Source: Spiroplasma phoeniceum P40
GTDB lineage: Bacteria > Bacillota_I > Bacilli_A > Mycoplasmatales > Mycoplasmataceae
Reading direction: 5' to 3'
NCBI RefSeq assembly: GCF_003339775.1
Contig: NZ_CP031088.1
Location: 806,001 to 870,000 of the forward strand
Length of the DNA: 64,000 nucleotides
Position numbers and translations under genes: made by a program. Below are positions 50,135-57,008 of the stretch, piece by piece. Position 1 is the first letter of the stretch. Every line of letters starts with the position of its first letter. A model generated the notes under the pieces. That model was not told the origin of the DNA, searched no databases, and saw only the letters and a program-made list of their open reading frames with translations.

Positions 50135-53098
50135 TTATGACAACGTAATTAATTCTGGTGATTCTAAAATTTCTTTTAATCGTGTTAAGAAAATACCTGC
50201 TTCTGCAGCATCAATAATTCGTTGATCAATTGTTAAAGCAAAATTCATTATTGAACGAATTACTAGTTTATCCCCTTTTATGACAATTGGTTTACGAACA
50301 ATACGCCCAACACCAATTACTGCTGAATTAGGATAAAAAATTGTTGGTGTTGCATTAACTGCTCCAACCATTCCATAGTTGGCAATAGTAATAGTACTTC
50401 CTTTTAATTCATAATCATATAATTCACCTTGACGTAAACGTTCAATTGTTTCTTGAATGTTAATTGCAATTTGTTTTAAACTCATTCGCTCAGCAAATTT
50501 AATAACTGGAATAACTAATCCCTCACTAGTTTCTGTTGCTAACCCAATGTGTTGTGAATTTTTAATTACAATTTGATTTGTTTTTGAATCATAATATGAA
50601 TTTAATTTTGGATATTCACTTAAAGCTAACGAAACTGCTTTTACTAAAAAACTCATTGTCGAAAATCGAACACCATACTCAGCATTAGCATTTTTTAATT
50701 TTCGTTGTTGATCAATAATTGCTGACATATCAATTTCAGTATTAATTGTTAATGGTGGTACATGTGCTTGAGACATAATCATTGATTGAATCGCAGGATA
50801 TCTTGTTGATTTAATTTCTTCTCTTGTTTCTAATCCCTGTGGTTCAACTTTACTATTAGTATTAATAATATTTAAATTGTTATTTAATGGTTGTACCAAG
50901 TTTCCATAACTATTAGGAATTGTAGTTTCTGTGGAATTAAATTTTTTAACTTGTAAATTATGTGTTTCACAATTATGTTCAGTTTTTAATTCAGGCCCTT
51001 GTTTATTATTAAATTTAAATTCTTTTAACATCTCTTTTAAAAAAGGATCTGACTCATTCATTGTTTTTAACATTTGTTGCATTAACATATATTGCATCAT
51101 TTTTTCAATGTTTGTTCCATCTGTATTATTATTATTATTATTTACTTGACGTAAACTTTGAATTTCTCGTAATAATTCATTTTGACGATTATTTTGTTCT
51201 TGATTAGCTAAGCGTTCTTTTAAAATTGCCAATTCAATCATTACATTATTGTCAATTGTACCTTTTAAACTACAGTTACTTTCATCACTGTTTTCAAGTT
51301 GAGTTAATTGCTTAGATGATTGTTGTTTTTCATATGATAAAGATGGTTTAACTATATCATCATTTGTTTTTTTTTGCTGCGAATTATTATCATAGTATTC
51401 ATTATCTAATATTTTATATTGTGATTCAACTTCCTCAAAAGAAGGACGCTGATAATTACTAATTCCTCCTAAAACAGAATCAACTTCAACATTTCCTTTT
51501 GCAATTTGCTCCATTCTTTTCTTAATTAACTCTCGTTGATTTCTTGTTTTTAAAATTTTTTCTCGTTGCCCATTATCATTTAATTTTTCATATAAACGAT
51601 CACGATAAGATTTTAATGGAGAAAAATGTCCTTGTTTTTTTTCTTTCGCTTCATTTGACTCATTTGGATCAATTGTGTAACCATCAGCAGAAATATAAAC
51701 TTCATCAGATAATTTTTTGTAATTTGTTTTAAAAGTATTAACATTGTCATTATAATTAGAAGCAGAACTACTATACCCAGTTTGTACTTCTGATGATACA
51801 TTTCTTTTAATTAAATCATTCATTCTTCCTTGGATAATATTACGTAAAATTTTAGGACGTCCATCTTCATCTAAAAAATCCATTGAATTTTTGGAATTAC
51901 CACTTTCTAATGATAACTCATGAAAATCATTATTATTATGTAATTGCTCACGACGTTGATTTACAAGATTACGAAAACTAGTATTTTCATTTTGACCACC
52001 AAAAAATGCTGCTGCATTAATTGGTACTTTATCTTGATGCTTTGTTGTATTAACTAAATATTTTGCATATTCTTTTGCTTGATTTTCTTCTGTTAATTTT
52101 GTTTGTCCAATTGTAATAGCATTCGTTATAATATTTTGGTCGGGAATAGAAGGCGGTTGATTCAAACTATTTGTTTGTGATTCAAAGTTACCATCTTGAA
52201 ACATATTACTATTCAAATCAGGAATATTAACCATTGTTGTCTTCGCCTCACTTTTTATTTCTTTATTCATTGGGTTTTTTATTGAATCAATTGAAGGAAT
52301 TTTTTCTCGATTATTAATAATATCATTATCATTAATTTTTAAATTTTTAAATGATAATCTTCGTGTTTTCTTAGGACCAAAAGATAATGCTGTTTCATCC
52401 CATCGTTTCTGTTCTTCTTGTGTTATTTTAGTGGGTTGTTCAAAAAGTTGTTTTTGTGATGATGAATTTTTTTGTTGCTGAAAATTAATGGATTGATTTT
52501 GTTCAATATTTGTTGAAAAATAAGAACTATTATTAATAGTATTCTCTTTAGAAAAGGGAGTTCCACCATTTTGGTTAAAATTTTGTGATAATATCGAAGT
52601 ATCATATGGTTGTTGTTCATTAATTAATACAGTTCTTGAATTAATGATGTTTTCATTATTGTAAACTTGTTGCTGATTAAATAAAGGTGGCGTAAAAGTT
52701 GGGTGTAAAGTATTTTCGTTCCCAATACTAATTCCTGAATAATCATCTTCTTCAACATCATTTCATTTTGTTCCAAATTGATCATTTTTTGTTGTCGAAA
52801 ATTTTACCCCTTTTTTATTTAAACGAGTAAATTCGTTATCTTCAAGACGTTTAAAATAATACTTTTCAATTTCATCTTCAGTTGTTAGCAAATTAGCAAT
52901 AACAGCATTGGGTTTAATTTTAGTGCCTTCTTTAATTGGCTTAACAATAATTCCATCCATTGGGGCTGTAATAATAGATTCGCCATTTTCAGTTTCAATT
53001 AAAGCAATTTTATCACCTAATTTAACCTCTTCATTCTGATATAAGAATTTTTTTAAAATTCCTTTTTTTCCTAACGTTAATACTCTAATTTTTTTCAT
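50135..53098 (-). CDS. E2 acyltransferase-like protein lacking catalytic residues
   Basis: This 987-aa protein is open through TGA at 52763. Residues 1-80 are a lipoyl-type domain, but the lipoyl site reads ETENGE instead of ETDKA, so the modified Lys is missing. Residues about 110-760 are Asn/Gln-rich and probably disordered with coiled pieces. The last about 210 residues match the E2 catalytic domain (NYGMVGAVNATPT, GVGRIVRKP) but the active-site HxxxDG reads DQRIIDA, without the His. It is probably a pseudoenzyme with a structural or binding role. Pyruvate dehydrogenase genes are not adjacent. Confidence 0.8.
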
Positions 53099-55231: not shown

Positions 55232-55411
55232 ATGCCAACTTGATTAACGACAATATTTAGTGTTGTTATTATATTAGGGATTTTTGCTTGAATTGGTTTA
55301 TCAATTTATCAAAAAATTAAACAAATTCGAGGAAAGAAAAAAGAAAAAAAAGAAATTGAAATAAAGGAGGATAAAAAAAATGTTAGGTATGTATTTAACA
55401 ACAGCGTTTAA
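55232..55411 (+). CDS. SpV1 small membrane protein, 59 aa
   Basis: [20 protein letters not shown] gives one membrane segment with a Lys/Glu-rich tail. It has AAGGAG upstream and overlaps the coat gene. Likely a virion or assembly protein; also present at 2552-2702 and 3200-3347. Confidence 0.7.
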
Positions 55412-55631
55412 TTTTTTAACAGCACCTACACTTAAAACTATGACTGAGGGTATGACTGGTATTTGAACGGGTTTGACTAGTGCATTATGAAAAGTTAAAG
55501 AAGGTATAACAAATATTTTACCTGAGATAATGGTTTTTTTAGGTGAAGCGTGAATTATATTAATTCCATTTGCTATATTTTGTATTATTAAAATCTTAAA
55601 CTTTTTCCGTGTTATGGTTAAAGGATTTTAG
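55380..55631 (+). CDS. SpV1 major coat protein (probable)
   Basis: This 83-aa protein has an amphipathic N-terminal half and one long hydrophobic segment (residues about 53-70, [17 protein letters not shown]) with a short basic end, the layout of filamentous-phage coat proteins. GGAGG precedes the start. Copies at 2304-2555 and about 3019-3180 show it is conserved. Confidence 0.7.
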
Positions 55632-56386
55632 TATTTATATTTATTATTTATCATGTATTTTAAATGTGGCACACTAGTTTTTATATGTGATTGATTAAAT
55701 AATTTTGTTGTTTATTTTTGCACTATACACTGTCTACAAATTTATTTTTAAATAAATTTAATTATTTTGGTTATTATTGATAATGTTAACAAGATGAAAA
55801 AACTTGTAGGCAGTATATAGTGTAAAAATATCAATTTTAATTATATTTAAGGTATTATTATGGTTTTCTCTCTGTATAAAAATATTTATAAATTTGTTAA
55901 TTTATTAAAAATTCAAATAATAAATTTAAAAGTTATTATTAAAATTATTATTAGTGAAATAATTGTTTTAATTGGTGATACCATTCATGATAATCAAAAA
56001 ATAGATGGTATCACATTTGTAAAAAATGAATTTATTAAATAGAAAAATGAATTTATTATTTCTTCGATATTTTATTTCTCCTTTCTATTTAAAATAATTT
56101 ATACAGAGAGAAAACCATAATAATATCAACTTAATTATAAATTTATGATTTTATATTTTAATAACTATTGTTAAAAATTAAATAGTATTTTTCAGAGTGC
56201 CAATTTTTATTATTTTATATATTTAACAATGTTTATTAACAGTGTTTATTAAACATTAAATAAACAATATATTAGCATTATTTATAACATTGTTAATAAT
56301 CAGTGTTTATTGCAATAAATAAACATTATATAAACATTATTTATAACATTGTTTATTAAACAAATATTTAGTTAGGAGACTATATT
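55632..56386 (+). other. SpV1 non-coding region with nested inverted repeats
   Basis: Three stems: CACTATACACTGTCTACAA (55720-55739) with 55803-55822, two mismatches; a 28-bp perfect pair at 55853-55880 and 56098-56126 around ATGGTTTTCTCTCTGTAT; and GTGATACCAT / ATGGTATCAC (55975-55984, 56005-56014) inside it. At 56220-56360 follow many copies of AATGTTTATT and its inverse. Such sites fit a viral replication origin and packaging signal. A 60-codon frame at 55860 lies inside the large stem and is probably not a gene. Confidence 0.65.
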
Positions 56387-56716
56387 ATGGATATGAAATT
56401 TAAAACAACTAAGAAATATAAAAAAATAAAGAGAGATTTTATTAAAAATATTTTTTTATTAAGTTTAATTGTTTTTTTGGTATATTGTTCACTTTTTTTA
56501 AGTTCTTTTATTTATTTTTCAATATTGAGTTGAAATGATAAAGATTTTCCATTCTCTGTATTTTTAATTATTATGTCTGTATATGCTTTTATAGTTATTA
56601 TTTTTGTGATTATTATGTATATAAAATATATTTTTGAAATTAAGGTAGAATTTGATGTTGAAAAAGAAAAATTAAATCAATATTGACAAATTGAAGGAGT
56701 TGATAAAATTGAGTAA
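56387..56716 (+). CDS. SpV1 membrane protein, 109 aa
   Basis: [18 protein letters not shown] precedes two membrane segments (about 20-45, 55-80), then a charged tail. It has GGAG upstream and overlaps the next gene's start. Function unknown; directly follows the putative origin. Confidence 0.7.
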
Positions 56717-57008
56717 TTTTGTTAAGAAAAATCAGAATGTAGAAAATTATTTTATTAGTAAGGAATTTATACCTTTTACAACAGAAAAAGCAAGTTTTAT
56801 TAATTTACCCAATCATAATTGCCATATTGGTTTTTGGTTGAGTAATAAGTTTATTTATCCGAGTGAAAAACATTCGGAACAAGTAGCAATCGGTTTGATT
56901 TATGATAATTCTTATCCTATTATAAAATATGATGAAAATTTAAAGCGAAATATTTGAAAGTATTTAACTGGAACAGAATTAATCAATTTATATAATCAAT
57001 ATAAATAA
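56709..57008 (+). CDS. SpV1 protein, 99 aa, TTG start
   Basis: I chose TTG at 56709 because AAGGAG lies 10 bases before it; no ATG is in frame. The protein ([34 protein letters not shown]) is soluble with one TGA. It may be a small DNA-binding or replication protein, not recognised. Confidence 0.6.

Follow-up and report, generated by a model that had tools for sequence, protein, structure and literature searches.

The gene at 50135..53098 on the minus strand of the window, by which is meant the whole stretch of 64,000 nucleotides of Spiroplasma phoeniceum P40 analysed here, codes for a protein with the core fold of E2 (dihydrolipoyl acyltransferase), and there is little doubt that this protein is a pseudoenzyme and not a working E2. 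The gene belongs to one old clade which is under purifying selection, and the distribution of this clade among the genomes matches that of the MreB set. The MreB skeleton of spiroplasmas is actin-like and makes the cells helical. The reading which we prefer, at a probability of roughly 45%, is that the E2-derived pseudoenzyme forms an oligomer which would give the MreB-based cell body a multivalent scaffold; its oligomerisation, its binding to MreB and its localisation are the parts which we infer.

The gene and its protein

The gene is complete and encodes 987 amino acids under translation table 4, the single TGA in the frame being read as Trp. The initial annotation remarked on an intact frame amid genes full of stops, and this holds, as both neighbours are broken. 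The transporter gene upstream is left with pieces of 137 and 184 amino acids compared to about 558 in the intact gene of G005, G008, G009 and G010, and the glucosidase-like gene downstream with 214 and 133 amino acids compared to 476 in its intact version. A downstream gene, c3, recurs at 16 pseudoenzyme loci, and the homology search for c3 reached genus g4 only. A protein of 420-440 amino acids with hydrophobic segments, a basic tail and no Pfam match (L139:1200-2486, L140:1136-2416, L073:14809-16131) is encoded directly upstream of the pseudoenzyme in genus g10 and near it in many genomes of genus g3; it was rejected as a general operon partner, because full-length copies are limited to g3 and g10. 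The small plus-strand ORFs at 55380-57008 of the window, one of which is hydrophobic, might be remnants of filamentous phage.

The N-terminal part of the protein, residues 1-85 (52844..53098, minus strand), is a lipoyl-like beta domain. The Pfam match to Biotin_lipoyl at residues 12-70 is weak, 17.3 bits at a cut-off of 22.1, and the AlphaFold model of the full-length protein, which has a mean pLDDT of 53, contains a beta domain here with a pLDDT of about 80. Residues 757-987 (50138..50830, minus strand) make up the E2 catalytic-type core, of which residues 757-985 match Pfam PF00198 (2-oxoacid_dh, the 2-oxoacid dehydrogenase acyltransferase domain) with an E of 1.6e-65. The closest solved relative of the core by sequence is the Geobacillus E2 core PDB 1b5s (E 7e-44). 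The core model (pLDDT 80) matches solved E2 cores with Z of 22-26, typically about 25, over some 205 residues, and 1b5s with Z 23.8 at 35% identity, so the core fold of the acyltransferase is present. No peripheral subunit-binding domain gave a Pfam match at E up to 0.1 with the same libraries that detect the core, a search which a strongly diverged copy could escape.

An overall E2 plan with a lipoyl site reading ETENGE and an HxxxDG motif turned into DQRIIDA had been proposed from the letters of the gene, and the alignments bear this out. Asn38 (52985..52987, minus strand) of ETENGE occupies the position at which active lipoyl domains have their lipoylated Lys. DHRMIDG of 1b5s aligns with DQRIIDA, in which Gln959 (50222..50224, minus strand), invariant in the orthologue alignment A1, replaces the catalytic His and Ala964 stands at the end of the motif. 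A third loss was overlooked at that time: SCTITN of 1b5s aligns with STITIAN, and in alignment with both 1b5s and the orthologues the active-site Ser/Thr, the Thr of TITN, is replaced by Ala906 of TIAN (50381..50383, minus strand). This column corresponds to Ser558 of the A. vinelandii E2.

The comparison of single residues covers 37 proteins, of which 35 are full-length and come from the fetched loci and two are the divergent copies of G164 and G195; it leaves out seven further g3 orthologues. The catalytic His is absent from every one of the 37, which read DQR in 36 cases and DRR in one. The Ser/Thr column holds Ala in all orthologues of the alignment from the host's family f1, and Thr in both from family f9. 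Among the 34 lipoyl-like domains the Lys column is occupied by Asn (14), Asp (12), Lys (3), Gly (2) and by Phe, Ser and Glu (one each); Lys is thus absent from 31, and the three orthologues which have it all belong to genus g4 (G039, G065, G079). The question raised by the initial annotation, whether both substitutions are fixed in the orthologues, therefore gets a divided answer: the loss of His is fixed, the loss of Lys is not, and no orthologue has both residues intact.

Between the two domains lies the arm, residues 86-756 (50831..52843, minus strand), which was originally described as a disordered linker of 650 residues. Most of it is indeed modelled with low confidence, but AlphaFold and conservation together point to helices at residues 321-356, 373-389, 418-433, 498-533, 554-575, 618-653 and 663-679. 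Block A (residues 373-389, 51932..51982, minus strand as are the following blocks) is a helix with the pattern S-x-FR-x-L-V-x-x-R, in which R376 and R382 are nearly invariant. Block B (residues 405-433, 51800..51886) reads M-D-x-L-D-x-x-GRP-x-x-x-R-N-I-I-x-x-R-M and includes the helix 418-433. Block C (residues 495-535, 51494..51616) has an R-x-x-I-x-x-R motif, nearly invariant Y498, I525 and R528, and the helices of 498-533. The long model helix of residues 618-653 (51140..51247) is possibly a coiled coil. Block D (residues 663-679, 51062..51112) is a Met/Gln-rich helix, MMQYMLMQQML, with M668 and Y670 nearly invariant. The arm residues which are invariant in 31 sequences are F375 in block A, P415, R419, I421 and R425 in block B, L626 in the long helix and Q669 in block D. 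Blocks A, B and C have an R-x-x-I/L-x-x-R/K type of pattern in common.

The mean conservation is 0.64 in residues 373-389, 0.68 in 405-433, 0.56 in 495-535 and 0.65 in 663-679, while the arm outside these blocks has 0.30-0.51. Arm blocks are also found in the orthologues that diverge most, those of G164 and G195 (L134, L135), from which the lipoyl-like domain is missing altogether. Since the model helices coincide with conserved blocks, the description as a disordered linker is only partly right. The N/Q-richness that was pointed out is found in the host protein (14.5% N and 8% Q); it is specific to the host's branch, and the arms of the relatives are richer in charged residues.

Distribution together with MreB and the fibril protein

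Orthologues are found in most genera of family f1 and in one other family, f9, a sister lineage. A genome was called MreB-bearing when its best match to PF06723 had an E below 1e-90, which is the case for 46 of the 298 genomes of the order. The pseudoenzyme is present in 44 of these 46, a distribution scored for this one gene. The exceptions are G023, which has a single MreB, and G072, which is 75% complete and fragmented. A full-length fibril protein is found, next to MreB, in 42 genomes of f1, and all of these carry the pseudoenzyme (40 by sequence search, the other two being the divergent copies of G164 and G195), whereas it occurs in none of the 18 f1 genomes without a full-length fibril protein. 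Family f9 is without full-length fibril protein and shows decay by degrees, and two of its genomes still have the pseudoenzyme: G035, where the gene is intact, three of the MreBs are intact and a fourth contains a stop, and G022, where the MreBs have in-frame stops and the pseudoenzyme gene is nonetheless intact. In G047 of the same family a 102-residue remnant of MreB goes together with a broken pseudoenzyme gene, and G029 and G041 have neither MreB nor pseudoenzyme, nor any E2 at all.

In a tree of EF-G the genomes G029, G047 and G041 are found on successive separate branches (86/81, 90/97 and 94/89), which implies three losses in f9; the non-helical clade of f1 (100/98) would be the fourth. 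The label non-helical refers here to genomes without full-length fibril protein and without the spiroplasma-type MreB set, and not to images of cells. The pseudoenzyme and MreB thus apparently have been lost together four separate times, with the reservations that the branch support is moderate and that genome decay is general.

It should be noted that five genomes of family f5 (G017, G032, G038, G054 and G069) have five or six divergent MreB-type matches, the best with E of about 1e-40 to 1e-60, and no pseudoenzyme. Second, diverged fibril-like genes with about 26% identity to the fibril protein lie beside the normal fibril gene at G158:C1:820888-822123 and G110:C1:1128818-1129633.

The match with MreB could also come from joint gene loss in reduced non-helical lineages, in which case the pseudoenzyme might be a scaffold that is not directly linked to the cytoskeleton and has its place in metabolism, at the membrane or in division, for instance. 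We consider this explanation rather unlikely, and it is the one among the alternatives with most in its favour. The lineages without the pseudoenzyme have also lost the fibril protein, and in f9 the E2 proteins altogether. The published cytoskeleton fraction points the same way: among the 16 Triton-insoluble cytoskeleton proteins of S. eriocheiris identified by Liu et al. (PMC5289999, Table 1) none is annotated as E2 or has a size of about 115 kDa, an absence from gel bands which is weak evidence. On the other hand the co-losses are apparently separate events, and the non-helical genomes of f1 (genera g2, g5, g6 and g7) have an ordinary E2 while the pseudoenzyme is absent, so not all relatives of E2 vanish. 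Moreover, f9 genomes as large as 1.2-2.0 Mb have lost the pseudoenzyme too.

Kiyama et al. (PMC9710875) reconstructed helicity and swimming in a minimal cell by means of two MreBs and in the absence of the pseudoenzyme; their candidate set consisted of seven genes, those for fibril and five MreBs plus a single unannotated one. The pseudoenzyme is not among the seven as these are described, and it is therefore not strictly needed for minimal motility. The same authors mention that some swimming spiroplasmas are without fibril protein (PMC9710875), which fits with a pseudoenzyme that tracks MreB rather than fibril.

Conservation of the core and loss of pyruvate dehydrogenase

Conservation is far higher in the core than elsewhere in the protein, with a mean of 0.75 versus 0.30-0.68 in the arm, and Asp963 of the core is kept in most orthologues. 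This could mean that the core has a ligand-binding or altered catalytic role, such as sensing of acyl-CoA in the old substrate channel. We find such a role improbable, as no orthologue examined has the His and very few have the Ser/Thr. In genus g10 even Asp963 is gone, the sequence there being DQRVSSEEQ or DRRICEQ, and conservation of the core could equally serve assembly.

Inactive relatives of E2 are known already. One of them is E3BP, the E3-binding protein or protein X of pyruvate dehydrogenase complexes. Its E2-fold core has no catalytic His and serves assembly rather than catalysis, and the core model matches the E3BP structure, PDB 6h60, with Z 23.5. On this precedent the pseudoenzyme might be an accessory subunit of pyruvate dehydrogenase which co-assembles with an active E2, and some genomes of the genus do carry both. 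The proposal is largely refuted by the persistence of the pseudoenzyme in the host and its sisters, where the complex is lost, and we hold it to be very improbable. In the host pdh locus pdhA is truncated to 213 amino acids and pdhB, pdhC and pdhD are gone, so at this locus the E1 and E3 partners are truncated (pdhA) or absent (pdhB and pdhD); G009 has an intact pdhABCD cluster at the same place. The remnant (L064:5709-9913, compared to L066:7760-14936) also keeps an lplA-like gene.

The initial annotation suggested looking for a separate active pdhC, and the host has no catalytic E2 at all: its E2-core proteins are two only, the pseudoenzyme and a second pseudo-E2. An active E2 is not seen in G004, G007 and G011 either, and the active-type E2 of G012 carries stops. 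The pseudoenzyme is absent where a genome has pyruvate dehydrogenase and no MreB. While E3BP keeps its lipoyl and subunit-binding domains and works inside the complex, the pseudoenzyme has no match to a subunit-binding domain and is found where the complex is gone. Apparently no inactive E2 relative has been described in the present setting; our literature search, in which subscription journals are thinly covered, found no published study of this protein.

The second pseudo-E2 has 618 amino acids and is encoded outside the window, beside the pdh remnants (L064:9958-11814; host C1:540960-542813). It reads GYNEAVID at the active site, has Asn in the column of the lipoyl Lys with a Lys one residue further on, and has an arm rich in His and acidic residues. 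It was found in the host's genus only, is truncated in G011, and falls outside the pseudoenzyme group in the tree of cores.

In this maximum-likelihood tree the pseudoenzymes form one group (98/97) apart from the active E2s; the deep placement is uncertain because of long branches. The gene is intact in 14 of 14 genomes of the genus by protein search. Pairwise dN/dS against 11 relatives is 0.06-0.17 for the core, with one exception of 0.64 in the closest pair, which has few changes, and 0.31-0.96 for the arm and 0.17-0.62 for the lipoyl-like domain. The orthologues in all 14 genomes and the low dN/dS of the core show that the pseudoenzyme is not there by chance. That the gene is a decaying former enzyme or a relic which is not expressed, as the many pseudogenes nearby could suggest, is refuted by its conservation across clades and by the dN/dS of the core and has a negligible probability. 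The original proposal that the protein is kept for something else is supported by these data, since pdhB, pdhC and pdhD are lost and no catalytic E2 is left, yet there is purifying selection, and the loss of His is common to all examined.

A possible scaffold of the MreB-based cell body

Compared to an E2 such as 1b5s the pseudoenzyme shares the core fold and the plan of a lipoyl-type domain, a linker and a core. It differs in the replaced His and Ser/Thr, in the Lys which is replaced in most orthologues, in having no detectable subunit-binding domain, in an arm of about 650 residues with its own motifs and in being present where the host pdh locus has no intact genes for the E1 and E3 partners. 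We think that the protein is probably used as a structural scaffold. The early suggestion of a scaffold or cytoskeleton element fits with the phyletic match to MreB and with the retained E2 fold, and has against it the S. eriocheiris list without an E2.

The trimer is the building unit of known E2 cores. The structures predicted here are those of a monomer; our proposal is that the core of the pseudoenzyme trimerises, or forms a larger assembly of the E2 type, and that the oligomer would display three or more flexible arms. The conserved R-x-x-I/L-x-x-R/K helices of the arms may be repeated binding sites for filaments or membrane partners, and arms and core together would then be a multivalent linker of the MreB-based cytoskeleton, at the ribbon, the membrane or the cell pole. 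In its most detailed form, which we put forward tentatively and consider the less likely version, an E2 core without catalytic activity would have been recruited prior to the divergence of the main spiroplasma lineages and would have become a many-armed oligomeric hub which cross-links or anchors MreB filaments, a component of the helical cell skeleton that is so far uncatalogued.

The Spiroplasma fibril protein is derived from a nucleosidase and is a proven filament. The pseudoenzyme resembles it in having the fold of a metabolic enzyme in the same bacteria and a nearly identical distribution among genomes. The two folds are unrelated, however, an assembly of the pseudoenzyme is a prediction, and the pseudoenzyme is present also in G035 and G022 of f9, which have no full-length fibril protein.

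All this bears on the way in which spiroplasmas, which have no cell wall, arrange their MreB ribbon and hold it in place. The present lists of cytoskeleton components rest on detergent-insoluble fractions and on a chosen set of seven genes, and by its sequence the pseudoenzyme is marked as a metabolic enzyme. If the proposed scaffold is correct, a pseudoenzyme of about 115 kDa, found nearly always with MreB and missing when MreB is missing, would be a new and testable part of the skeleton, and it would be the second metabolic-enzyme fold reused for structure in spiroplasmas, after the nucleosidase-derived fibril protein.
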